Below are positions 39,068 through 52,753 of a stretch of 64,000 nt of DNA, one piece after another. The translations under genes were made by a program, and so were the position numbers. The notes below the pieces were generated by a model. The model made no database searches and had not been told where the DNA came from. It saw only the letters and a list, made by a program, of their open reading frames with translations. Within the stretch, counting starts at the first letter, position 1; the number at the start of each line of letters is the position of its first letter. The stretch is from Pseudomonas sp. FP2196 (lineage in GTDB: Bacteria > Pseudomonadota > Gammaproteobacteria > Pseudomonadales > Pseudomonadaceae), in NCBI RefSeq assembly GCF_030687715.1, contig NZ_CP117445.1, positions 1,980,501 through 2,044,500 on the forward strand, given 5' to 3'.

Positions 39068-39835
39068 CTACAAGGCACATGAGGTCTCAATGCAGGAGCT
39101 GCCGTAGGCTGCGATCTTTTGATCTTCTGCAACAGCAGCAACGGCTCCAATGACCAAAATCGCCGGGCTTCGCAATCCAAACACTCTCGAATCCTCTTCC
39201 ATAGCCAGCAGATCACTGCGGCACTCGCGCTGCTCTGGCAGGGACGCATTCTCGATCATCGCCACTGGCGTATCCGCCGCCATACCGCCCGACAATAGCT
39301 GGTTGCGAATTTCGCCAAGCTTGGCCACCCCCATGTAGATCACCAGTGTCGTGCCGCCCTGAGCCAGTGCCTGCCAGTTCAGTTGGCTGTCGTCCTGAGT
39401 GTGCGCGGTCACCAGCGTTACCCCGCGAGCGACGCCACGCAGCGTCAGGGGAATATCACATTGGGTTGCCCCGGCCAGTCCGGCGGTAATGCCGTTGACC
39501 AGCTCGACTTCGACGCCACGCTCACGCAACCACTGCGCCTCTTCGCCGCCACGGCCGAAGATGCACGGATCGCCGCCCTTGAGTCGCACCACACACTTAC
39601 CGTGGCGGGCGTAGCGCAGCATCAGCCGATGAATAAACGCCTGCGGTGTCGAACGACAACCGCCGCGTTTACCCACGGCAATGATGCGTGCGCCCGAGCA
39701 ATGCTCCAGTACCGCGTCATTGACCAGGTCATCAATCAGCACCACATCGGCTTCGCGCAAGGCACGCACCGCTTTGAGGGTCAGCAGTTCCGGATCACCC
39801 GGCCCTGCACCCACCAGCCAGACTTTTGCGTTCAT
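39068..39835 (-). CDS. cobA: Uroporphyrinogen-III C-methyltransferase (SUMT)
   Basis: 255 residues. It methylates uroporphyrinogen III twice to precorrin-2, the branch to siroheme and cobalamin. Motifs are VWLVGAGPGDPELLTLKA at the start, VRLKGGDPCIFGRGGEE, and VIYMGVAKL. It is last in the nitrate/nitrite cluster; NirB needs siroheme, which explains the linkage. The final 19 residues (EDQKIAAYGSSCIETSCAL) are read from a family-B intergenic repeat (39091-39126), so the tail is repeat-derived and probably dispensable. Confidence 0.94.
   Translation of the reverse strand: MNAKVWLVGAGPGDPELLTLKAVRALREADVVLIDDLVNDAVLEHCSGARIIAVGKRGGCRSTPQAFIHRLMLRYARHGKCVVRLKGGDPCIFGRGGEEAQWLRERGVEVELVNGITAGLAGATQCDIPLTLRGVARGVTLVTAHTQDDSQLNWQALAQGGTTLVIYMGVAKLGEIRNQLLSGGMAADTPVAMIENASLPEQRECRSDLLAMEEDSRVFGLRSPAILVIGAVAAVAEDQKIAAYGSSCIETSCAL
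39091..39126. repeat. Single family-B repeat overlapping the cobA 3' end
   Basis: TGCAGGAGCTGCCGTAGGCT followed by GCGATCTTTTGATCTT. It is unpaired, unlike most family-B copies in the window, and is read in-frame as the cobA tail. Confidence 0.8.
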
Positions 39836-39848
39836 GGTGTTTTCCTCA

Positions 39849-42563
39849 TCAGATGACGGCGGCTGGCTGCACGTCGGCGGCCAGCAAGCGCTTAATTTCC
39901 GGGACGCATGAGCCGCATTGCGTGCCGCAGCCCAGTTGGTTTTTCAAGCCCTGCAGATCCAGGCCCTGGCGAATGCCGGCGCAGACCGCGTTGAGGCTGA
40001 CGTTCTTGCAGTTACACAGGGTTTTATCCAAAGCCATCTGCGCCCCGGCACTGCCGGGCGGTGTACTCATTGGCGCCAGCAGCCAACGCCGCAGTTGTTC
40101 ATCCGCACGGCCTTCCAGCCACAACCCTTGCAGCCAATGCTGGGCGAGGGTTTCACCGGCCAATCGGATCGCAGTGATCCGGCCGTTTTCAATGCGCACG
40201 CGCTTGCCAATGGCCCGGCGTGGATCGTCGTAAGCCAATACCGGGCCGTCGATCAATGCCAGGCTTCGATCGATTTCACTGAGCAATTGCGCATTGGGTG
40301 CCTCGCTGCTGGCTGCGCGTATCAGCAATGCCGATCGTTCACGTCCGACAAGGCTGAGACTCACGTAGGAGAATGCCTCGCAGAGCGGTCGTAGCGTCTC
40401 GAAATGCCGTTGAACATCACCCTCGATCAGGGCGAAGAGCTGCCACGGCAGATTGACCGGCTCCAGGCGCACACCGCTGTGTTTGAGTTCCGGTTGTTTT
40501 GACAGTGGATCAAAGGCCGCCAGGGTGAGGCTGTTCACGCCGCCCTTGAGAAAGCGATCGCCCCAGTGCATCGGCAAAAACGCCTGACCTGGGCGCACGC
40601 TGTCATCGCTGGCAACTGCGACAATCACCGCGCCGCGACGGCTTTTCAGGTTGACCAGATCGCCCGGCTGCAAGCGATGCCGACGCAATTCGTCTGGATG
40701 CAGACTCAGCACCGCTTCGCTGACATGCCCGAACAGCTGCGCCGCCGTGCCGGTGCGGCTCATACCGTGCCATTGATCGCGCAGGCGGCCGGTGATCAAC
40801 GTCAATGGAAAGCGGGCGTCACGTTGTTCCTTGGCAGCGCGATACGGGTCGGCAATGAATTGCGCGCGGCCGTTGGCGGTCGGGAAAATGCCGTCTTCGT
40901 ACAGTCGTGGTGTGCCTTCGCGGGCGCCGACAGGGAAGGGCCATTGTTGCGGCCCGATCTCGTCGATCAGCCCATGGCTGATCCCGGACAAATCCAGATC
41001 ACGCCCGCGCGTCAGCCCTTTGAATTCATCGAACAGCTGCGCAGGTTGAGTAAACGTAAACAGGCTCGATTCAGCGGGGCGCAGACGTTTCTCCAGACGT
41101 TGTGCGAAATCCACCGTGATCGCCCAGTCTGGCCGCGCCTCACCCGGTGGAAGAATGGCTTTGCGCACGTGGGAAATGCGCCGCTCGGAATTGGTTACCG
41201 AGCCTTCTTTCTCGCCCCAACTGGCGGCGGGTAGCAGCAGATCGGCGAATGCTGCGGTTTCAGTGGTGCGAAAGGCTTCTTGCAGGACCACAAACGGGCA
41301 GGCCTCAAGCGCTGCGCGCACAGAATGTTGATCCGGCATCGATTGCGCAGGGTTGGTGCAGGCAATCCACAACGCCTTGATCTTGCCGTTGCGCACTTGC
41401 TCGAACAGTTCGATGGCGCTCAGCCCGGTACTTTCCGGCAACCGGTCAACGCCCCAATAAGCCGCCACTTCAGCGCGATGCTCAGGGTTGGCCGCATCAC
41501 GATGGCCGGGCAGCAAGTTGGACAAGCTGCCGGTTTCGCGCCCGCCCATGGCATTCGGCTGACCGGTGAGGGAGAAAGGTCCTGAGCCCGGGCGGCCGAT
41601 TTGTCCGGTCGCCAGATGCAGATTGATCAGTGCGCTGTTCTTCGCGCTGCCAGCGGTGGATTGATTCAGGCCCATGCACCACAGCGACAGGAAGCTCGGT
41701 GAAGTGCCCACCCATTCAGCGCATTGCTGCAATTGCTCGACACTGATCCCGCACAGTTGCGAAACCATCTGCGGGGTGTAATCGCGTACCAGGGTTTTCA
41801 GTTCTGCCAGGCCATCGGTGTGGGCCTTGATGAAGTCGCGGTCGATCCAGTCTTCCCACAACAACAGATGCAAAATCCCATGGAACAAAGCGACATCGGT
41901 GCCGGGCAATATCGCCAGATGCAGGTCCGCCAAGTCGCAGGTGTCGGTGCGCCGAGGATCGATGACGATGACTTTCATCTGCGGACGTTGGGATTTGGAC
42001 TCTTCCAGTCGACGAAAGAGTACCGGATGGGCGTAGGCCATGTTGCTGCCGACGATCATCACGCAATCGCTGAGTTCCAGATCCTCATAGCTGCACGGCG
42101 GCGCATCGGCGCCGAGGCTGCGTTTGTAGCCGACCACCGCCGACGACATGCACAGCCGTGAGTTGCTGTCGATGTTGTTGGTGCCGACCAGCGCCCGGGC
42201 GAGTTTGTTGAAGGCGTAGTAATCCTCGGTGAGCAATTGCCCGGAGATGTAGAACGCGACGCTGTCCGGGCCATGTTCGGCGATGGTTTCGGCGAACACA
42301 TTGGCGGCATGTTCCAGCGCGGTGTCCCAGTCAGTGCGGGTGCGCGCCAGTGCCTTGCCCAAACGCAGTTCCGGGTACAACGCGCGTGCGGCGAGGTCGC
42401 CGGTCAGGTGCAGAGTCGAGCCTTTGCTGCACAGTTTGCCGAAGTTGGCCGGATGCGCCGGATCGCCGCTGACGCCGAGGATGCGCTCGCCGTCATGCTC
42501 GATCAGTACGCCGCATCCGACTCCGCAGTAACAGCAGGTCGAGGCGGTCGTCTGGCGGTTCAT
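39849..42563 (-). CDS. nasC: Assimilatory nitrate reductase catalytic subunit
   Basis: 904 residues from the ATG complementary to 42561-42563 (MNRQTTASTCCYCGVGCG). It reduces nitrate to nitrite in the cytosol. N-terminal [4Fe-4S] cysteines are CCYCGVGCGVL and LCSKG, followed by the molybdopterin (bis-MGD) domains. A C-terminal BFD-like [2Fe-2S] domain is CNCKNVSLNAV...GCGTQCGSCVPEI. The start overlaps the nirD stop by one base (TGATG). Names for this gene vary between nasA and nasC in the literature. Confidence 0.95.
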   Translation of the reverse strand: MNRQTTASTCCYCGVGCGVLIEHDGERILGVSGDPAHPANFGKLCSKGSTLHLTGDLAARALYPELRLGKALARTRTDWDTALEHAANVFAETIAEHGPDSVAFYISGQLLTEDYYAFNKLARALVGTNNIDSNSRLCMSSAVVGYKRSLGADAPPCSYEDLELSDCVMIVGSNMAYAHPVLFRRLEESKSQRPQMKVIVIDPRRTDTCDLADLHLAILPGTDVALFHGILHLLLWEDWIDRDFIKAHTDGLAELKTLVRDYTPQMVSQLCGISVEQLQQCAEWVGTSPSFLSLWCMGLNQSTAGSAKNSALINLHLATGQIGRPGSGPFSLTGQPNAMGGRETGSLSNLLPGHRDAANPEHRAEVAAYWGVDRLPESTGLSAIELFEQVRNGKIKALWIACTNPAQSMPDQHSVRAALEACPFVVLQEAFRTTETAAFADLLLPAASWGEKEGSVTNSERRISHVRKAILPPGEARPDWAITVDFAQRLEKRLRPAESSLFTFTQPAQLFDEFKGLTRGRDLDLSGISHGLIDEIGPQQWPFPVGAREGTPRLYEDGIFPTANGRAQFIADPYRAAKEQRDARFPLTLITGRLRDQWHGMSRTGTAAQLFGHVSEAVLSLHPDELRRHRLQPGDLVNLKSRRGAVIVAVASDDSVRPGQAFLPMHWGDRFLKGGVNSLTLAAFDPLSKQPELKHSGVRLEPVNLPWQLFALIEGDVQRHFETLRPLCEAFSYVSLSLVGRERSALLIRAASSEAPNAQLLSEIDRSLALIDGPVLAYDDPRRAIGKRVRIENGRITAIRLAGETLAQHWLQGLWLEGRADEQLRRWLLAPMSTPPGSAGAQMALDKTLCNCKNVSLNAVCAGIRQGLDLQGLKNQLGCGTQCGSCVPEIKRLLAADVQPAAVI

Positions 42564-42880
42564 CAGATAGCTTCCCGCAGGGCCAGTTGCACGCGGCCAT
42601 TTTCGACCCGGGCAGGGTGGTGGTGCGCGCAACCGACGTCCGGTGCCTGAGCCTCGCCCGACTCCAGATCGATCTGCCAGTTATGCAGCGGGCAGGCCAC
42701 GCGTTTGCCGTAGATCAAGCCCTGTGACAATGGCCCGCCCTTATGTGGGCAGCGGTCGTCGAGGGCGAATACTTCATCGTCACTTGTACGAAAAATCGCG
42801 ATATCACCTTTCGGCCCGGCAATGATCCGCGAACCGAGGGCGTTGATGTCTTCCAGGGCACAGATATCGAGCCAGTTCAT
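42563..42880 (-). CDS. nirD: Nitrite reductase (NAD(P)H) small subunit
   Basis: 105 residues (MNWLDICALEDINALGSRII). Rieske-like fold with the segments DRCPHKGGPLS and CPLHNW; the CxH...CxxH pair present here would bind a [2Fe-2S] cluster, a feature lost in many NirD proteins. It overlaps the nirB stop by four bases (ATGA). It partners NirB in reducing nitrite to ammonium. Confidence 0.93.
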   Translation of the reverse strand: MNWLDICALEDINALGSRIIAGPKGDIAIFRTSDDEVFALDDRCPHKGGPLSQGLIYGKRVACPLHNWQIDLESGEAQAPDVGCAHHHPARVENGRVQLALREAI

Positions 42881-45330
42881 GCCGGCACCTCCAGGTTTTT
42901 CACGGGGATCACGTCGAATTCTTTCTTCAATTGCGGCTGCGCCAAGCGCTCTTTCCATGGGTCCTGCTCGAACGACAGGGAGAATTGCAGGCGCTCATTC
43001 AGCGTTTTGCGACGTTCCGGGTCTTCCAGCACGGCTTTCTTGATGTGCTCCATGCCGACCCGTTGCAGGTAGTGCACGGTGCGTTCGAGGTAGAACGCTT
43101 CTTCGCGGTAGAGCTGCAGGAACGCGCCGTTGTATTCGCGGACTTCCTCGGCGGTTTTCAGCTTGACGAAGAACTCGGCAACTTCGGTTTTGATCCCGCC
43201 GTTGCCGCCGATGTACATCTCCCAGCCGGAGTCGACGCCGATGATCCCTACGTCCTTGATCCCCGCTTCCGAGCAGTTGCGTGGGCAACCGGAGACGGCC
43301 AGTTTCACTTTGTGCGGCGACCACATGTTGAACAGGTCATGCTCAAGCTCAATGCCCAACTGCGTCGAATTCTGTGTGCCAAAGCGGCAGAACTCACTGC
43401 CGACGCAGGTCTTCACGGTGCGGATGGATTTGCCGTAGGCGTGGCCGGACGGCATGTCGAGATCTTTCCAGACGCCAGGCAGATCCTGCTTTTTGATGCC
43501 GAGCAAGTCGATCCGCTGGCCGCCGGTGACCTTGACCATCGGCACGTTGTACTTGTCGGCCACATCGGCAATTCGCCGCAGTTCTGAAGGATTGGTCACA
43601 CCGCCCCACATGCGCGGCACCACCGAATAAGTGCCATCCTTCTGGATGTTGGCGTGGGCACGTTCGTTGATCAGGCGTGATTGCGGATCGTCCTTGGCTT
43701 CGCCGGGCCAGGTGGAAATCAGGTAATAGTTGAGGGCCGGGCGGCACGTTGCGCAGCCGTTAGGCGTGCGCCAGTTGAGGTAACTCATGGTCCCGGCGAT
43801 GGTCAGCAGGTGCTGCTCGCGAATGGCCTGGCGAATCTGCCCGTGGTTGAGGTCGCTGCAACCGCAGATGGCTTTTTCGCTCTTCGGTTTGACGTCGGCC
43901 GCGCCGCCGACGGTGTTGATCAGGATCTGTTCGACCAGCCCGGCGCACGAGCCGCAGGAGCTGGCAGCCTTGGTGTGTTTCTTCACCTCATCGACGCTGA
44001 ACAGGCCGTGCTCTTGAATGGCTTTGACAATGGTGCCTTTGCACACGCCGTTGCAACCGCAGACTTCGGCGGTGTCAGCCATGACCATGGCTTTGTCCTG
44101 GCCTTGATGTCCTACATCGCCTAGAGCGTTTTCTCCAAACATCAAGTGATCGCGGATCTCGCCGATGGCGTGATTCTCACGGATTTGTCGGAAATACCAA
44201 CCGCCATCTGCCGTATCGCCGTACAGACAGGCGCCGACCAGCACGTCATCCTTGATCACCAGTTTTTTGTACACCCCGCCGATGGGATCGGAGAGGGTGA
44301 TGGTCTCGGTGCCTTCGCCGCCCATGAAGTCGCCGGCGGAAAACAGGTCGATGCCGGTGACTTTCAATTTGGTCGAGGTCACCGAGCCTTGGTAACGAGC
44401 AAAGCCTAATTGCGCGAGGTGGTTGGCGCAGACCTTGGCCTGTTCGAACAGCGGCGCGACCAGGCCGTAAGCAATGCCGCGATGGCTGGCGCATTCGCCG
44501 ATGGCATAGATCCGCGGGTCATAGGTTTGCAGGGTGTCGTTGACCAGAATCCCGCGATTGCACGGGATGCCGGCCTTTTCCGCCAGTTCGGTATTGGGGC
44601 GAATGCCGGCAGCCATTACCACCAGATCGGCGGGGATGATGTCGCCGTTCTTGAATTGCACCGAGCCGACCCGACCGTTGCCCGCGTCATGTAGGGCCTG
44701 GGTCTGCTCGCACAGGCGGAAGTGCAGGCCACGGGATTCGAGGGCGCTTTGCAGCAGTTGGCCGCTGGTTTTGTCGAGTTGGCGCTCCAGCAACCACTCG
44801 CCGAGATGCACCACGGTGACGTGCATGCCGCGCAGCATCAGGCCGTTGGCGGCTTCGAGGCCGAGCAGGCCGCCGCCGATGACGACGGCGTGCTTGTGGG
44901 TTTTCGCGGTGTCGATCATCGCCTGGGTGTCGGCGATGTCGCGGTAGCCGATCACGCCCTGCAGGGTGTTGCCGGGGATTGGCAGGATGAACGGCGTTGA
45001 ACCGGTAGCGATCAGCAGGCGATCGTATTCAGCCTCAGTGCCGTCTTCAGCGATCACCCGGCGTTTGACCCGGTCGATTTCCACCACTTTGCGGTTGAGC
45101 AGCAGCTTGATGTTGTTTTCCAGGTACCAGTCGAGGTCGTTGAGGACTATCTCCTCGAAGGTCTGTTCACCGGCCAGCACCGGCGACAGCAGGATGCGGT
45201 TGTAGTTGGTGTGCGGTTCGGCGCCGAAGACCGTGATGTCGTACAGCTCGTTACTCAGCTTGAGCAGTTCTTCCAGGGTTCGGACCCCGGCCATGCCATT
45301 GCCGATCATCACCAGTTTGAGTTTTTTCAT
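42877..45330 (-). CDS. nirB: Nitrite reductase (NAD(P)H) large subunit
   Basis: 817 residues from the ATG complementary to 45328-45330 (MKKLKLVMIGNGMAGVRTL), with a CCGGAGAA ribosome site. An FAD/NADH domain is followed by two BFD-like [2Fe-2S] segments (CGCNGVCKGT...CGSCAGL and CGCSDLNHGQI...CATCRPA). The siroheme/[4Fe-4S] domain has CVGSEFCRFG and VSGCPRNCSEAGI. The last residues are VIPVKNLEVPA. It is preceded by a leader with ANTAR-type hairpins and a sigma-54 promoter (see those entries). Confidence 0.96.
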   Translation of the reverse strand: MKKLKLVMIGNGMAGVRTLEELLKLSNELYDITVFGAEPHTNYNRILLSPVLAGEQTFEEIVLNDLDWYLENNIKLLLNRKVVEIDRVKRRVIAEDGTEAEYDRLLIATGSTPFILPIPGNTLQGVIGYRDIADTQAMIDTAKTHKHAVVIGGGLLGLEAANGLMLRGMHVTVVHLGEWLLERQLDKTSGQLLQSALESRGLHFRLCEQTQALHDAGNGRVGSVQFKNGDIIPADLVVMAAGIRPNTELAEKAGIPCNRGILVNDTLQTYDPRIYAIGECASHRGIAYGLVAPLFEQAKVCANHLAQLGFARYQGSVTSTKLKVTGIDLFSAGDFMGGEGTETITLSDPIGGVYKKLVIKDDVLVGACLYGDTADGGWYFRQIRENHAIGEIRDHLMFGENALGDVGHQGQDKAMVMADTAEVCGCNGVCKGTIVKAIQEHGLFSVDEVKKHTKAASSCGSCAGLVEQILINTVGGAADVKPKSEKAICGCSDLNHGQIRQAIREQHLLTIAGTMSYLNWRTPNGCATCRPALNYYLISTWPGEAKDDPQSRLINERAHANIQKDGTYSVVPRMWGGVTNPSELRRIADVADKYNVPMVKVTGGQRIDLLGIKKQDLPGVWKDLDMPSGHAYGKSIRTVKTCVGSEFCRFGTQNSTQLGIELEHDLFNMWSPHKVKLAVSGCPRNCSEAGIKDVGIIGVDSGWEMYIGGNGGIKTEVAEFFVKLKTAEEVREYNGAFLQLYREEAFYLERTVHYLQRVGMEHIKKAVLEDPERRKTLNERLQFSLSFEQDPWKERLAQPQLKKEFDVIPVKNLEVPA

Positions 45331-45401
45331 CAGGTTCTCCGGGGAGCTGCGGCTGGCCTCTTGTGGGCAGTCAGGCCTCGCTCGACAAATTTTGCGCAAA
45401 C

Positions 45402-45488
45402 AAAAAAAGGCGTCCCGCTAGTTGCCTAGCGAGGACGCCTTTGTCCTGGTCCCGTTCTCTCGGGAAGCGCAGCCTTCGTCGTTGAAGG
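45402..45488 (-). promoter_or_regulatory. ANTAR-type antitermination leader of nirB
   Basis: Read on the minus strand in transcription order. P1 (45473-45488): CCTTC-AACGAC-GAAGG. P2 (45450-45465): TCCCG-AGAGAA-CGGGA. Intrinsic terminator (45402-45442): stem AAAGGCGTCC...GGACGCCTTT with an inner CGCTAG/CTAGCG, then a T run. Both hairpin loops are six bases with A at position 1 and G at position 4, the known ANTAR-protein recognition rule. NasT, an ANTAR protein, is encoded nearby. Binding of both hairpins should allow readthrough into nirB when nitrate or nitrite is present. The P2/terminator spacing is tight, as expected for coupled folding. Confidence 0.85.
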
Positions 45489-45516
45489 TTGGGCTTTATG
45501 TGTGGTGAAAGGAGTA

Positions 45517-45535
45517 ATGCAGTGGTTGTGCCAAG
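45517..45535 (-). promoter_or_regulatory. Sigma-54 promoter of the nirB operon
   Basis: Minus strand: CTTGGCACAACCACTGCAT. GG and GC are separated by exactly 10 bases. The expected start point is about 20 bases before P1 of the leader. A weak NtrC-like dyad, GCACC-N5-GATGC (one mismatch), lies at 45588-45602. Confidence 0.7.
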
Positions 45536-45659
45536 TGGGTGAATAGCGAATTTATTGGGGTTTGGCGGATGTCTGTGGTGGTTTTTTGCACCGAATCGAT
45601 GCGGGTTGCTCGTTCGTGGAGCGTTCAGGCAGATGAATTTGTAGTGATTGGGAGGGCGT

Positions 45660-45728
45660 CATCGCGAGCAGGCTCACTCCTACAGGGGAATGCATTTCAA
45701 ATTGTAGGAGTGAGCCTGCTCGCGATGG
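45660..45728. repeat. Family-A REP pair
   Basis: Inverted copies of ATCGCGAGCAGGCTCACTCC with TACAGG, and the complement. It sits between the PP2C/kinase gene stop and the nirB promoter. The stretch 45536-45659 shows nothing else but the NtrC-like dyad. Confidence 0.85.
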
Positions 45729-45741
45729 TCGCGACGCGGTG

Positions 45742-47412
45742 TCAGCCGTGAAATAACAAAATCAGCAGCACCACATTCCCCAGCATCGCCAACAGCGCCA
45801 TCGTCCGCCAGACCTTCAATGGCTCACGCTCCAGTAACGGCCGAGGCCGGACGCTTAGGCTGCGCCGCTCACCCTGTTCCAGCAGCAGCAACCATTCTTC
45901 CGCCGTTTCAAATCGTTGTTGCGGAGCCGCAGCAACACCACGCTCCAGGCCCTGCGCCAACCATTCCGGCAAATCCGGCCGGTAACGACTGGCACTGACC
46001 GGCATCCCAAATCGTGGCCGCTGAAAGGCTTCGATCTCGCCATAAGGAAAATGCCCTGTGAGCAGGAAATACAGGGTCACGCCCACCGAATACAGATCCT
46101 GCTGCACGCCGGGTGGGTCACCGCGAAAAGCTTCTGGCGCGATGTAACTCGGCGTTCCTGGCAGCGTCGATGGCGCATCTTCAGACAGGCCGGAACAGTA
46201 AGCCAGACCAAAATCCAGCAGACGCAGTTCGCCATCGTCACCCAGCAGGAGGTTTTCCGGTTTGATGTCCCGATGCAGAATCTGTCGCCGATGTAACAGC
46301 CCCACCGCGCGCAGCAGCCGCTCAGCCAGTTCCTGCCACTGCGCCAATGGCAACGGGCCGTCTCGCTCGAAAAGCTGCGCCAGGGTCGTCCCCGAATATT
46401 CCCGCATCACGTAGTACAAATGCTGACGCTGAGGGCAGCCATGGACTTCAGGAAAATGTCGCCCGGCCACGCGCTTGAGGAACCACTCTTCCGCCAGCAG
46501 CGCTTGCCCGACCTTGGTGCCTTCGGCCAATCGCGTGGGCAGGGTCTTCAGCAGCCACGCTTGCCCTTGTCCGTCGAGGACTCGATACAGCAGCGATTGC
46601 TGACTCTGTCCAACAACGCTTTGCACCTCCCAGCCTTCGAACGATTGACCGGGTTTTAGCGGCGGCGGCAGTGGCCATTGCTGCAGATGAATCAATGCAT
46701 CGCCGATGCTTGATTCGCCAACGGCATCGACGCGCACCAGTAATGCACTCGCGTTGTCCTGGCTACCGGCCAGATGCGCGGCGTTCACCAGTGTATGTGC
46801 CGCGCTGTTCAGGTCCGGTTGATCGCGCAGAATTGCCGCAATCGCGGTATCGCTCAAAGTCGACCAGACGCCGTCGCTGAGCAGCACGAAACACTCGCCG
46901 TCGCGCAATTCACCGTCGAGAAAGTCCAGCACCAAATGCTGATCGAGGCCCAGCGCACGCTTGAGCACATGCTGCATGCCCGGCTGATCCCAAACGTGAT
47001 CGTCGGTGATTCGCTGCAAGCTGTCGGCAGACCAGCGATAGACCCGGCAATCACCTACGTGGGCCAAGGTAAAACGCCGACCTCGCATGACCAAAGCACT
47101 GACAGTGGTGAGTAGCGGTTGCCCGCCACCATTGGCCTGCAGCCAGCGATTCTGCGCGATCAACAAGCGATCCAAAGCCTGAGCCACGCCCCAGGTCTGC
47201 GGTGTGGCGTAGTAGTCGAGCGCCAGTGCCTGCAACGTCGAGCGCGCGGCGAGCCCGCCATCGGCGCACTGGCTGACGCCGTCGGCGATGGCGAACAGAT
47301 AGCCCTTGCTCGCCGCCAGTGCCGGGGCGGGCGTGACCAGGCGCAGGGCGTCCTGGTTTTCCGCGCGCGGACCGGTGGCGCTGGCTTCGGCAAAACTCAG
47401 TTGCAGGGCCAT
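45742..47412 (-). CDS. Fused PP2C-type phosphatase and Ser/Thr protein kinase, membrane anchored
   Basis: 556 residues. Residues 1-235 are a PP2C phosphatase: metal Asp in AENQDALRL, IADGVS (D44), VGDCRVYR, LLSDGVW (D180) and SQDNASALL (D219). Residues 255-515 are a Hanks kinase: Lys289 in WLLKTLPTRL, HRDIKPENLLL (D382), DFGLAY (D400), and GTPSYIAPEAF. The Gly-rich loop is unusual (VVGQSQQS, not GxGxxG). The last helix (MALLAMLGNVVLLILL) anchors it in the inner membrane. It starts 7 bases after the nitrate-transporter stop, so it is co-transcribed with it. That suggests a role in tuning nitrate assimilation or transport, but no substrate is known. Confidence 0.93.
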   Translation of the reverse strand: MALQLSFAEASATGPRAENQDALRLVTPAPALAASKGYLFAIADGVSQCADGGLAARSTLQALALDYYATPQTWGVAQALDRLLIAQNRWLQANGGGQPLLTTVSALVMRGRRFTLAHVGDCRVYRWSADSLQRITDDHVWDQPGMQHVLKRALGLDQHLVLDFLDGELRDGECFVLLSDGVWSTLSDTAIAAILRDQPDLNSAAHTLVNAAHLAGSQDNASALLVRVDAVGESSIGDALIHLQQWPLPPPLKPGQSFEGWEVQSVVGQSQQSLLYRVLDGQGQAWLLKTLPTRLAEGTKVGQALLAEEWFLKRVAGRHFPEVHGCPQRQHLYYVMREYSGTTLAQLFERDGPLPLAQWQELAERLLRAVGLLHRRQILHRDIKPENLLLGDDGELRLLDFGLAYCSGLSEDAPSTLPGTPSYIAPEAFRGDPPGVQQDLYSVGVTLYFLLTGHFPYGEIEAFQRPRFGMPVSASRYRPDLPEWLAQGLERGVAAAPQQRFETAEEWLLLLEQGERRSLSVRPRPLLEREPLKVWRTMALLAMLGNVVLLILLFHG

Positions 47413-47419
47413 TGAAGCC

Positions 47420-48631
47420 TCAGACCCGCGCCGCTGTCACCGCGGCCGAACCCCATGTGGTTCTCCAGCGACGCTTGACCCCGTGCAGACCAAACCACGC
47501 CAGCACGCCAAGGCTGGCGAACAACCACAGCGCCAATTGATAACTGCCGGTGCTTTGTTTGATCGCGCCCATGCCGGCCGCCAAGGCAAAACCACCGATT
47601 CCGCCGGCCATGCCGATCAGCCCGGTCATCACGCCGATCTCCAGACGAAAGCGCTGTGGTACCAGTTGGAAAACCGCACCGTTGCCGGCTCCCAAACCGA
47701 GCATGGTGCAGACGAAAAGGGCCAGTGCCGCGTAGGAACTTGGCAAGTTGAAACCGACCGCCGCGATGCAGATGGCGGCGACGGTGTACATCGCCAGCAA
47801 GGTGCGGATGCCGCCGAAACGATCCGCCAGTGCGCCCCCCAATGGCCGCATCAGGCTGCCGCCGAACACACAGGCGGCGGTGTAGTAACCCGCCGTTACC
47901 GGGCTCAAACCGTACTGATCGTTGAAGTAGCCGGGCAGGGCGCTGGCCAAGCCGATGAAGCCGCCGAAGGTGACGCTGTAGAAAAACATGAACCACCAAC
48001 TGTCACGATCACCGAGGGCCTTGAAATAGTCGGCCATGGACTTGGCTTTCGGACGCTGCGGAGCGTTTTTTGCCATCCAGGCGAACAGCACCAGCGTGAG
48101 AATCAGCGGAATCACTGCGAAGCCGAACACGTTGCTCCAGCCGAAGGACGCGGCCAGTACCGGTGCGAGCAGTGCAGCGAACACGGTGCCGGAGTTACCC
48201 GCGCCAGCAATGCCCATGGCTTTGCCCTGATGCTCCGGCGGATACCACTGCGACGCCAGCGGCAGGGCTACCGCGAACGAAGCGCCCGCCATGCCGAGGA
48301 ACAGGCCCAGTATCAACGCCTGCTCGTAACTGTGAATGCCGAGTTTCCAGGCGCCGAACAGCGCGCAGATAACGATGACCTGGCCGATCAGTCCGGCAGT
48401 TTTCGGCGACAGTCGATCAGCGAGCATGCCCATCGCAAAACGTAATACGGCGCCGGCCAGGATCGGTGTGGCAACCACCAGCCCGCGTTGTTGCGTGGTC
48501 AGGTGCAGGTCGGCGGCAATTTGCACCGCCAGGGGGCCGAGCAGGTACCAGACCATGAAACTCAGGTCGAAATAGAGGAAGGCCGCGAACAGAGTCGGGG
48601 TGTGGCCGGATTTCCAGAAGCTTGAATTCAT
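47420..48631 (-). CDS. nasA: Nitrate/nitrite transporter (NarK/NasA, MFS)
   Basis: 403 residues from the ATG complementary to 48629-48631 (MNSSFWKSGHTPTLFAAFLY), with GAGG upstream. A major-facilitator protein with 12 helices; the nitrate-nitrite porter signature is in GMAGASFAVALPLASQWYPP and FGAGNGAVF-like GLGAGNGAVFQLVPQ (helix 8). It brings nitrate into the cytosol for NasC. Position corresponds to PA1783 of P. aeruginosa. It is preceded by its own ANTAR leader and sigma-54 promoter. Confidence 0.93.
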   Translation of the reverse strand: MNSSFWKSGHTPTLFAAFLYFDLSFMVWYLLGPLAVQIAADLHLTTQQRGLVVATPILAGAVLRFAMGMLADRLSPKTAGLIGQVIVICALFGAWKLGIHSYEQALILGLFLGMAGASFAVALPLASQWYPPEHQGKAMGIAGAGNSGTVFAALLAPVLAASFGWSNVFGFAVIPLILTLVLFAWMAKNAPQRPKAKSMADYFKALGDRDSWWFMFFYSVTFGGFIGLASALPGYFNDQYGLSPVTAGYYTAACVFGGSLMRPLGGALADRFGGIRTLLAMYTVAAICIAAVGFNLPSSYAALALFVCTMLGLGAGNGAVFQLVPQRFRLEIGVMTGLIGMAGGIGGFALAAGMGAIKQSTGSYQLALWLFASLGVLAWFGLHGVKRRWRTTWGSAAVTAARV

Positions 48632-48730: not shown

Positions 48731-48816
48731 AAAAAACGCCGCTACCTGATTCGCCGGGAGGGGCGAACGGGGTGAGCGACGTCTTTGTCGTGGGTGGGGC
48801 AACCGCCGTTGGTTAC
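48731..48816 (-). promoter_or_regulatory. ANTAR-type antitermination leader of the nitrate transporter
   Basis: Minus strand, in transcription order. P1 (48799-48816): GTAACC-AACGGC-GGTTGC. P2 (48777-48790): CGAC-AAAGAC-GTCG. Terminator (48731-48778): CGCT...TTCGCC / GGCGAA...AGCG, then GCGTTTTTT. Both loops are six bases with A1 and G4. The 3' arm of P2 overlaps the 5' arm of the terminator, so the two cannot fold together; NasT binding to P1-P2 should prevent termination. This repeats the nirB leader design. Confidence 0.83.
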
Positions 48817-48830
48817 CTGTGCGTAATGCT

Positions 48831-48848
48831 TAGCGAGATTTGTGCCAA
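48831..48848 (-). promoter_or_regulatory. Sigma-54 promoter of the nitrate transporter gene
   Basis: Minus strand: TTGGCACAAATCTCGCTA. The GG and GC elements are separated by 10 bases and lie about 15 bases before P1 of the leader. The -24 element directly abuts a family-B repeat (48850-48932), which occupies the usual NtrC enhancer region. Confidence 0.72.
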
Positions 48849-48942: not shown

Positions 48943-49518
48943 TCAGCCCAACAACTCACTCATCGCAATAATCTGCTCCGCCACCTGAATCAGCTTCTGC
49001 TGCCTGCTCATGGCCTGACGCCGCATCAGGGTGTAGGCCTCTTCCTCGTTGCAATCCTTCATCTTCATCAACAAACCCTTGGCCAGTTCGATGCGCTTAC
49101 GCTCGGCCAGTTGCTGATCGCGGGCCTGAAGCTGCGCGCGCAAGGCCTGATCGCTCTCGAAACGGGCCATGGCCACATCAAGAATCGGCTGCAAGCGTTG
49201 TGCGTGAATGCCTTCGACGATGTAGGCACTGACCCCGGACTTGATCGCCTGACGCATCACGCCGGGGTCATGTTCGTCGGTAAACATCACGATCGGGCGA
49301 GGCTGGTCGCGGCTGACCAGCACCACTTGTTCCATCACATCGCGGCTCGGTGACTCGGTATCGATCAGGATTACATCCGGGCGCACCGTTTCGACGCGCG
49401 CCGGCAGGTCGATGGTCAGGCCTGACTCGTCGATCACCTCGAAACCGGCTTCGGTCAGCGCGGCCTTCAGGCGCCCGACTTTTTTCGCCGTGTCATTGAT
49501 CAGCAGAATACGCAGCAT
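48943..49518 (-). CDS. nasT: ANTAR-domain antiterminator NasT
   Basis: 191 residues. Residues 1-120 have a receiver-like fold (LLINDTAKKVGRLKAAL...ILIDTES); the ANTAR domain is at about 130-185 (ERKRIELAKGLLMKMKDCNE...). The receiver looks degenerate: the acidic pair is Asn-Asp, and the conserved Lys is replaced by Glu in AYIVEGI. This fits NasT being held by NasS rather than activated by phosphorylation. It binds the two leader hairpins upstream of nirB and the transporter. It follows nasS by 15 bases. Confidence 0.93.
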   Translation of the reverse strand: MLRILLINDTAKKVGRLKAALTEAGFEVIDESGLTIDLPARVETVRPDVILIDTESPSRDVMEQVVLVSRDQPRPIVMFTDEHDPGVMRQAIKSGVSAYIVEGIHAQRLQPILDVAMARFESDQALRAQLQARDQQLAERKRIELAKGLLMKMKDCNEEEAYTLMRRQAMSRQQKLIQVAEQIIAMSELLG

Positions 49519-49533: not shown

Positions 49534-50745
49534 TCAGCGGCGGGCGAGAAGGGGAGCGTCGTCGCTCAGGGCGTGCAGCTTGAAACTGCGGGCGTACCCG
49601 GCTGGATCGCTGCCGTCCCAGACTTTGCCGTCGAGCAACTGACTGCTGCGCATGTCTGTGCCCCACGCGGCGACGCCGACAGCGGTCGCCGCTTCGCGAT
49701 AAACGTCCAGTTGTTGAACCTGACGGGCCACGGCGAGGTAATCCGGGTCTTCGCGCAGCAGGCCCCAGCGGCGGAACTGGGTCATGAACCACATGCCGTC
49801 GGAGAGATACGGCAGATTGACTTCGCCATTGCCGTGAAAGCGCAAGGCGTGAGGGTCTTGCCAGCGATTACCGAGGCCGTCGGCGTACTCACCGAGAAAG
49901 CGCGGTTCGATGCACGAAACCGGCGCGTCTAGATAATCCGGGGCGCTGAGCAATTGCGCGGTGCTGCGGCGATTCTCCTGGCTTTGTTCGATGAAGCGGC
50001 TGGCTTCGAGGATCGCCATCACCAGCGCCCGCGCGGTGTTCGGGTACTGCTCGACGAAGGCGCGGGTGCAGCCGAGGACTTTTTCCGGGTGGTCGGGCCA
50101 AATCGTCTGGCTGGTGGCCATGGTGAAACCGAGATCCTGCTGCACCGCGCTGGCGGCCCAGGGTTCGCCGACGCAAAAGCCGTCGATTCGTCCCGCTTGC
50201 AGGTGCGCAACCATTTGCGGCGGCGGCACGACCACGCTGTCGACATCCTGTAACGGATGAATGCCCTGGCTCGCCAGCCAGTAATAAAGCCACATGGCGT
50301 GTGTGCCGGTCGGGAAGGTCTGAGCGAAGGTCAGTTTTGCGCGAGATTGGTGCACGTGGCGATCCAGCGCTTCAGGACTGCTCACGCCGAGGCTTTGCAG
50401 GCCGTGGGACAGGTTGAGGCTCTGACCGTTCTGATTCAGGCCCATCAACACGGCCATGTCGGTGGATGCGATGCCTCCGATGCCCAAATGCACGGCGTAG
50501 ATCAAACCGTACAGACTGTGGGCGGCATCGAGTTCGCCGCTGACCAGTTTGTCGCGCAGGTTGGCCCATGACGTCTGGCGCTTGAGGTTCAGGGTCAGGC
50601 CATAAGGCTGGGCGAAACCCTGAGTGGCGGCCACCACCACCGAGGCGCAATCGCTCAGGGCCATGAAACCAAGGTTGATCGCAGTCTTTTCCGGAGCATC
50701 GCTGCCGTTGACCCAGGCCAGCGGCCCGACGGAGGGTTCATTCAT
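49534..50745 (-). CDS. nasS: Nitrate/nitrite-sensing protein NasS
   Basis: 403 residues from the ATG complementary to 50743-50745 (MNEPSVGPLAWVNGSDAPEK). It resembles the NrtA-type nitrate-binding protein but lacks any signal peptide, so it is cytosolic. In Azotobacter and other bacteria NasS binds NasT and releases it when nitrate or nitrite binds. The frame upstream to 50973 is not used because it crosses into the pyrD promoter region. The nasS leader shows no clear ANTAR hairpins. Confidence 0.92.
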   Translation of the reverse strand: MNEPSVGPLAWVNGSDAPEKTAINLGFMALSDCASVVVAATQGFAQPYGLTLNLKRQTSWANLRDKLVSGELDAAHSLYGLIYAVHLGIGGIASTDMAVLMGLNQNGQSLNLSHGLQSLGVSSPEALDRHVHQSRAKLTFAQTFPTGTHAMWLYYWLASQGIHPLQDVDSVVVPPPQMVAHLQAGRIDGFCVGEPWAASAVQQDLGFTMATSQTIWPDHPEKVLGCTRAFVEQYPNTARALVMAILEASRFIEQSQENRRSTAQLLSAPDYLDAPVSCIEPRFLGEYADGLGNRWQDPHALRFHGNGEVNLPYLSDGMWFMTQFRRWGLLREDPDYLAVARQVQQLDVYREAATAVGVAAWGTDMRSSQLLDGKVWDGSDPAGYARSFKLHALSDDAPLLARR

Positions 50746-50939
50746 AGCATGCACCTGCAAAAAGCCGCCTTCAAAAAAAACGCCGCCACCGATTTTGCGC
50801 AGGCAAAACCCCATGACGACGCCATTGTCCTGGCCCGTACGCCGCCATTGGCGTGCGGGCTGATGGCTAGAAAGGTGCAAGGCATATGCCAGTCGCGCCG
50901 ATTCGCGCGTGCGCCTCGCGCCGCAGGTCGATGCCCGGC

Positions 50940-52495: not shown

Positions 52496-52753
52496 AGGGT
52501 GTTTCCCTCACTTGTTGACTGTTTGTGTCGCGTTGACCTCAACCGAGGTCTGGCAGAAAAACTCTGCCGGGGGCGGCTCGCTGCCGGCGTGGCGAGCCAA
52601 GGTGTTGACGCCGTTGCGACGTCAACCTGCTGTCAGTTCTAACCAATGAGTCACACCGATGGAATGACCGTTTTGTCATAAGGACGTAACGAAAAGAGTG
52701 TTGCAGCGATAAGTAACTGCGTATTTATTGAATGTTTATTGGGCAAACCCCGG

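Follow-up and report, generated by a model that had tools for sequence, protein, structure and literature searches.

A predicted NasT-responsive attenuator before nirB in Pseudomonas sp. FP2196 and similarly built leaders before narK and nasS-nasT

We are highly confident that the nirB leader of Pseudomonas sp. FP2196 is a NasT-responsive attenuator of nirB, nirD, a nitrate reductase gene and cobA, that it is the counterpart of NalA in Pseudomonas aeruginosa and a member of the P11 RNA family, and that its switch is the hairpin at the base of the terminator (P2) and not the hairpin in the middle of the leader (MID). The window analyzed here is the whole stretch of 64,000 nucleotides (contig NZ_CP117445.1, positions 1,980,501 to 2,044,500), and all coordinates are positions within it. 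Published papers are cited from excerpts of their text.

The nirB leader and its genomic setting

The four genes behind the leader lie on the minus strand. The nirB gene (42880-45330) matched the NCBIfam model TIGR02374 with 933 bits, and both nirD (42563-42880; TIGR02378) and cobA, encoding uroporphyrinogen-III C-methyltransferase (39068-39835; TIGR01469), scored above their cut-offs. The gene at 39849-42569 was assigned by its place in the operon to a nasC-like catalytic subunit of assimilatory nitrate reductase; its NCBIfam matches to formate dehydrogenase alpha, NasA and NasC were all below cut-off. Also on the minus strand are a narK-family gene for a nitrate/nitrite MFS transporter (47420-48631; TIGR00886, 308.8 bits, cut-off 311.7), nasT, encoding an ANTAR antiterminator (48943-49518; PF00072, 30.4 bits, cut-off 30.2, together with PF03861), and, adjoining nasT, a gene for a nitrate/nitrite sensor (49534-50745; PF13379). 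We take the product of this last gene, for which no NCBIfam model scored above cut-off, to be NasS. NasT combines a receiver-like domain with a C-terminal ANTAR domain and has the NasS-like gene next to it, and a PF03861 search of the FP2196 genome gave a single match, which makes NasT the cognate ANTAR protein. The 3' end of nasT is about 3.5 kb from the nirB leader, close to the 3.6 kb given in a preliminary description of this DNA.

The leader itself, also on the minus strand, lies downstream of a -24/-12 element, TTGGCACAACCACTGCAT (45517-45534), whose TGGCA and TGC do not vary across an alignment of 90 leaders and which, by its consensus, we presume to be a sigma-54 type promoter that brings in nitrogen limitation. 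Three short hairpins with six-base loops follow, namely P1 (CCUUC-AACGAC-GAAGG, 45473-45488), MID (UCCCG-AGAGAA-CGGGA, 45450-45465) and P2 (AGGAC-AAAGGC-GUCCU, 45432-45447), and all three loops carry A at position 1 and G at position 4 (A1/G4). The intrinsic terminator with its U-run (AAAGGCGUCC...GGACGCCUUU, 45401-45442) was recognized from sequence and folding. The 3' arm of P2 is the 5' arm of the terminator, so that P2 overlaps the terminator base, as is required of ANTAR dual-hexaloop leaders, whereas MID does not and is compatible with the terminator. The leader scored 133.7 bits against RF00625 (P11), for which the gathering cut-off is 70, and is thus a member of this Rfam family. The RF00625 model also places base pairs across the letters of the sigma-54 promoter, and these we would not expect in the actual RNA.

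Several other features of the region were recorded. Between narK and nirB, 45742-47412 (minus strand) encodes a protein that is phosphatase-2C-like in its first half and serine/threonine-kinase-like in its second, with NCBIfam matches below cut-off. A long near-perfect inverted repeat, presumably REP-like, is located between the nirB leader and this kinase gene (45657-45730, plus strand) and is the source of a match to mir-3938; this match and those to ctRNA, Guanidine-II and Six3os1 in the region were below the Rfam cut-offs and were disregarded. An rmf RNA (Rfam RF01755, 116.4 bits) is found at 52514-52646 on the minus strand.

Competition between P2 and the terminator

We folded the nirB leader with an assumed transcript start at 45508 and compared RNA with and without the 3' arm of the terminator. 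The 89-nt leader is far more stable than its shuffled controls (folding z -6.2), none of 200 shuffles being equally stable. Short of the terminator 3' arm, P1, MID and P2 formed with pair probabilities of about 1, except for the outermost pairs of MID (0.55) and P2 (0.87); in the full leader, P1, MID and the terminator formed and the probability of P2 was 0. All three leaders of this build in the window (nirB, narK and nasS) behaved alike, P2 going from 0.87-1.0 before the terminator 3' arm was made to 0 afterwards, with P1 and MID nearly unaffected. Only P2, among the hairpins of the nirB leader, is predicted to compete with the terminator. Since MID forms alongside the terminator, its formation alone does not block termination. 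Location of the second hexaloop at the terminator base is the rule of Ramesh 2012 (PMC3369931), which is repeated in PMC8934654.

The preliminary description had named P1 and the hairpin with loop AGAGAA (MID) as a two-hairpin ANTAR site before a strong terminator. All of these elements are present and fold with high probability. P1 would be part of the site. MID, which co-folds with the terminator and has no A1/G4 hexaloop in 19 of the 79 unique leaders (see below), would not, and AGGAC-AAAGGC-GUCCU, which had been read solely as terminator, is the third A1/G4 hexaloop hairpin and the predicted competitor of the terminator.

In the mechanism that we propose, sigma-54 and NtrC would initiate transcription of the nirB leader under nitrogen limitation. 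Without nitrate, NasT would be held by NasS and RNA polymerase would halt at the terminator, giving a short RNA of probably about 100 nt. Nitrate or nitrite would lead NasS to release NasT, and the freed protein would bind the hexaloops of P1 and P2 and keep P2 closed, thereby withholding the 5' arm of the terminator. MID would be an accessory hairpin, either a spacer or, where it has been kept, an extra docking loop for NasT.

Gene PA1785 of P. aeruginosa is, we assume, nasT. The NalA leader of that species has sigma-54 boxes and a terminator, and a PA1785 mutant is unable to grow on nitrate (PMC3973561). According to a review (PMC12830290, citing Nie 2024), NasT binds NalA and relieves termination in pseudomonads; a nasT deletion in P. 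putida leaves scarcely any growth despite nitrate (PMC7261876), and dissociation of NasS and NasT has been reported (PMC3795266). Antitermination by NasT, the operon order and NasS/NasT as the source of the signal, all put forward in the preliminary description, fit our analysis and are in print for this leader in other pseudomonads.

Unlike the eut leaders, the nirB leader has a third hexaloop between P1 and P2, so that the P1-P2 linker is 25 nt instead of the 5-12 nt seen in eut, and a 14-nt linker impaired eutP induction (PMC3369931). In view of this difference, MID may help to close the distance between P1 and P2, or it may give NasT a third loop to bind. We treated linker length as non-defining because the search model of Ramesh 2012 (PMC3369931) permits a variable linker.

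Conservation among relatives

Conservation was assessed in 90 nirB leaders, comprising that of the window, the 29 best-scoring P11 loci and one from each of 60 relatives' stretches, with some genomes represented twice and 79 of the leaders unique. All come from the 184 genomes, among 248 of the family, that P11 matched, and the lowest-scoring matches were left out. In a MAFFT alignment, all 90 leaders had A1, A2 and G4 in the P1 loop and A1 and G4 in the P2 loop, while the corresponding columns of the MID loop held A in 83 of them and G in 84. When loop size was considered, 60 of the 79 unique leaders had an A1/G4 hexaloop in MID (49 counted directly and 11 recognized by manual reading of the list, where the script had closed an extra pair inside the hexaloop). 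The 19 others include three hexaloops that lack A1/G4 and one deletion (L114), besides insertions and loops of 3, 4, 5 or 7. The preliminary description had made conservation of the two loops in relatives a test of its proposal, and P1 passes this test while MID partly fails it.

The P2 stem GGAC/GUCC was found in 78 of the 79 unique leaders, and because it is almost invariant there is nearly no covariation in it; the P2 loop is also constrained by pairing within the terminator. In the sole exception, L113, AAAGGGGGGCCCCCCC follows the P2 loop and replaces the usual 5' arm of the terminator, whereas P1, MID and the 3' arm are intact, and this oddity is either a sequence error or an altered switch. 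The outer pairs of P1 vary among unique leaders with both sides of the stem changed, and in 11 of the 79, P1 either formed at most two contiguous pairs or fell outside the searched interval. Strong covariation was seen for P1 in 36 short-linker elements; as these came from a scan that requires pairing, we gave it no weight.

As a check without selection on P1 or MID, we picked leaders of named genomes with a DNA pattern that covers nothing but P2 and the terminator. The pattern matched in at least 120 stretches; the matches listed comprised 80 loci in Pseudomonas, Stutzerimonas, Azotobacter, Halopseudomonas and MAGs, 78 of them with enough upstream sequence. Among the matches listed, the P1 core CAANG was present in 77 of these 78 leaders (at least three contiguous P1 pairs in 68, fewer in 9) and an A1/G4 hexaloop in MID in 68; the other ten, again among the matches listed, include the MID hexaloops GUCGAA, CUCGAU, GUUGCA, AGAAAA and GUAGAA. 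Where MID has its hexaloop, positions A1, G4 and A5 are nearly fixed and positions 2, 3 and 6 are variable. Judged from these sequences, MID is common and mostly rule-abiding, yet dispensable.

What MID contributes can be read in more than one way. A tentative reading, and a version of our preferred explanation, is a three-loop relay in which NasT would dock on the emerging P1 and MID and then catch P2 ahead of the terminator arm. The hairpins emerge in the order P1, MID, P2, the linkers are 7 nt (P1-MID) and 2 nt (MID-P2), and A1/G4 is retained in most leaders examined, all of which agree with such a relay; that several lineages dispense with the MID hexaloop speaks against it.

We consider it improbable that P1 and MID together are the NasT site and that the terminator is opened indirectly, for example sterically. 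MID co-folds with the terminator, its A1/G4 hexaloop is missing in the 19 unique leaders and, among the matches listed, the 10 named-genome leaders described above, and in the narK and nasS leaders the linkers of 7 and 9 nt leave no room for MID. Such a site would nevertheless account for the 7-nt linker, which matches eut spacing, and for the near-fixed A1, G4 and A5 next to variable positions 2, 3 and 6, and EutV dimers seem to bind two hexaloops independently, with an additional single hexaloop in the EutX RNA (PMC8934654). With P2 as the switch, half of the loop mutants proposed in the preliminary description would strike an accessory hairpin.

Co-occurrence with ANTAR proteins

P11 and narK RNA were counted in the 248 family genomes at E 0.01 and not at the Rfam cut-offs. 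P11 was found in 184 genomes (160 above cut-off), narK RNA in 193 (177 above cut-off) and NasT in 188. One or both RNAs occurred in 201 genomes, and an ANTAR protein was encoded in 200 of these 201 (187 NasT, 13 other), counts that ignore kinship. Thirteen of the 14 leader-positive genomes without NasT encode another ANTAR protein, and the five of these proteins scanned with Pfam are NIT+ANTAR fusions of the NasR type. The lone leader-positive genome without an ANTAR protein (G035) has a marginal narK RNA match (E 0.0055).

All 199 genomes that combine a nirB match with a leader have an ANTAR protein, as against 2 of the 18 in which nirB matched but no leader was found. Four of these 18 genomes have strong NirB matches (G074, G173, G177 and G184), and the matches of the other 14, at about 5e-133 to 1e-141, may represent another enzyme. 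Among the 188 NasT genomes, 14 have no P11 match; in 13 of these nirB matches only weakly, at about 1e-134 to 1e-141, and in one it does not match at all. Weak nirB matches exist in P11-positive genomes too, for example G147 and G005, and one genome (G088) has NasT and neither leader. Across the family, the leaders appear to accompany their reader protein, and to persist still when the reader switches from NasT to NasR.

These patterns bear on the proposal that P11/NalA is mainly a trans-acting sRNA, with the terminator as its 3' end. Rfam gives the type of P11 as 'Gene', sRNA, and the terminated product would accumulate. It is very improbable, in our judgment, that this is its main role, given that conservation tracks the parts of the switch, that presence tracks ANTAR proteins and that published accounts treat P11/NalA as a leader (PMC3973561, PMC12830290).

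Tandem hexaloops in the window and in related genomes

Once the leaders were known, we wrote a scan that requires a pair of A1/G4 hexaloop hairpins and an overlapping terminator. In the 64-kb window it picked out exactly three sites, one each before nirB, narK and nasS and thus on the minus strand; on the plus strand of the window there was no tandem-hexaloop site with a terminator. Over 1.24 Mb, that is the 60 relatives' stretches and the window, there were 115 matches on the leader strand (two of them extra matches at one place, L114) versus 2 on the opposite strand. Although 4-bp A1/G4 hexaloop hairpins abound singly in the window, with 60 and 89 on its two strands, a chance meeting of such hairpins with a constitutive terminator is hardly credible in the face of this strand difference, even from a scan written after the leaders were known, and of loop bases that are invariant and conserved across genera.

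The FP2196 genome was also searched with model R1, the training set of which includes the narK and nasS leaders of the window. There was no strong target in this genome beyond these two leaders (53.6 and 45.5 bits); the nirB leader scored 19.1 bits and the next best site elsewhere 20.8 bits (E 0.036), and we therefore claim no further NasT targets in the genome. Three more weak RF00625 matches in the same genome, obtained at a lax threshold (best E 0.08), were rejected as chance; six of 14 control genomes match likewise.

The narK and nasS leaders

The narK leader (minus strand) has a sigma-54 type promoter, assigned by sequence (48831-48848), a P1 hairpin (GGUAACC-AACGGC-GGUUGCC, 48798-48817) recognized through RF03032, an antiterminator P2 (CGAC-AAAGAC-GUCG, 48777-48790) and, mutually exclusive with P2, a terminator (48731-48782) supported by sequence and folding. 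The leader scored 79.2 bits against RF03032 (narK RNA), with a gathering cut-off of 43.2, and is a member of this family. The RF03032 model pairs just one hairpin, whereas the narK leader of the window adds another hexaloop hairpin overlapped by a terminator and with these resembles an ANTAR leader. The nasS leader, on the same strand, is of similar build and fold, with a sigma-54 type promoter of nasS-nasT, again assigned by sequence (50875-50892), a P1 found by the tandem scan (ACGCC-AAUGGC-GGCGU, 50839-50854), an antiterminator P2 (GAC-AAUGGC-GUC, 50818-50829) and a mutually exclusive terminator from sequence and folding (50773-50823). With 31.4 bits it is under the RF03032 cut-off and was not filed as a member. 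The P1-P2 linkers of 7 nt in the narK leader and 9 nt in the nasS leader are both within 5-12 nt.

A simple rule (P1, P2 and a T-run) was satisfied at 42 of the 56 RF03032 loci examined. Among the 42 loci over the cut-off, 39 have P1 and P2 with A1/G4 as well as a T-run; the exceptions are L039 and L064, with G at position 1 of the P2 loop, and L043, with a weak P1 stem. As L039 and L064 suggest, the A1 rule is not absolute among kin leaders. Of the 14 loci below the cut-off, L049 and L052 have both hairpins with the spacing or the T-run distance outside the rule, L048 has a short T-run, and L051, L054 and L056-L061 look like chance matches. An order-wide search with RF03032 matched 27 of 293 genomes, 13 of them above the cut-off. 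P11 and narK RNA seem to belong to a single functional class, the ANTAR attenuator.

We then considered 49 nasS-nasT operons, from the relatives' stretches and the window, under a simple rule for P1, P2 and a T-run. A sigma-54-like site was found by a loose pattern upstream of nasS in 48 of them. The attenuator was complete in 27 operons, reduced to P2 and the T-run in one and absent from 21; a stricter scan found it in 17 of 47. None of the 13 operons with genus label g15 has the attenuator, and eight of the 21 negative operons belong to four other genus labels. Inspection by eye of leaders among these eight showed that L114 and L117 still have P1 and P2, with a P2 loop that begins with G, and that L145 retains a terminator. 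Two species of the window's genus, L095 and L098, have similar nasS promoters and differ in that L095 has the attenuator and L098 has none.

A NasT-type attenuator before nasS means that NasT would read through into its own gene, and the shared build before nirB, narK and nasS-nasT means that one protein would control nitrate uptake, nitrate reduction and its own production. We infer that the narK and nasS leaders respond to NasT and that nasST is autoregulated thereby. On balance, and with some reserve, we favor the view that nasS-nasT has a NasT attenuator of its own downstream of a sigma-54 promoter and forms a nitrate-latched positive loop, which related lineages have gained or lost, and that the nirB leader has a third hexaloop as an extra docking site for NasT.

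ANTAR-type leaders were also seen in relatives before genes for longer NasS-like substrate-binding proteins, with a first frame of about 427-475 aa (L092, L101, L106, L107, L108, L119, L121, L130, L132, L139 and L140). These longer proteins are perhaps part of a nitrate ABC transporter, and with these additional leaders the regulon may be larger in relatives.

Relation to known systems

The nirB leader and its NasT mechanism are already known. NalA (RF00625, P11), the leader of nirBD-PA1779-cobA in P. aeruginosa, is credited to Romeo 2012 by PMC3973561 and PMC12830290; it resembles the leader described here in its position before nirB, its sigma-54 promoter, its terminator, its NasT dependence and its operon order, and the leader of the window is its counterpart in another Pseudomonas. 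The eutP/EutV, amiE/AmiR and nasF/NasR leaders (Ramesh 2012, PMC3369931) likewise have two A1/G4 hexaloop hairpins, the second at the terminator base. Three points go further than the accounts covered here: the switch is read as P2 instead of MID, the narK RNA of the window is read as an ANTAR leader, and nasS has a leader of its own, this nasST leader being the fresh part.

NasT-recognizable hairpins also occur in the Bradyrhizobium leaders of nosR, nirA, coxS, narK and bjgb, which are known or predicted targets before nitrogen genes, the hairpins before narK being predicted ones (PMC6759348). Bradyrhizobium belongs to another class, however; narK expression rose in its nasT mutant, and the passages covered of PMC6759348 name no nasST leader among the targets. 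In Paracoccus denitrificans, also of another class, the leader of a nitrate assimilation operon, here nasABGHC, is NasT-dependent and contains two hairpins, of which the upstream one, HI, is needed (PMC5424462). In contrast to the nasST leader described here, nasTS in that species is described as being under NtrC control, and no attenuator is mentioned for it in the passages covered of PMC5424462. A literature search at the level of titles, abstract beginnings and excerpts, which did not extend to the full texts of Romeo 2012, Nie 2024, Weinberg 2017 and Marogi 2024, found no report of nasST autoregulation by antitermination, and a literature search on narK RNA found none.

Conclusion

In conclusion, the published NasT mechanism of the nirB leader can be read from the FP2196 genome, including the hairpin that is worth mutating. 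If P11 and narK RNA are indeed one kind of ANTAR attenuator, this would help genome annotation to call NasT and NasR regulons directly. The feedback leader of nasS-nasT, which is present in some lineages and not in their close relatives, would provide a natural comparison for what autoregulation contributes to nitrate induction.
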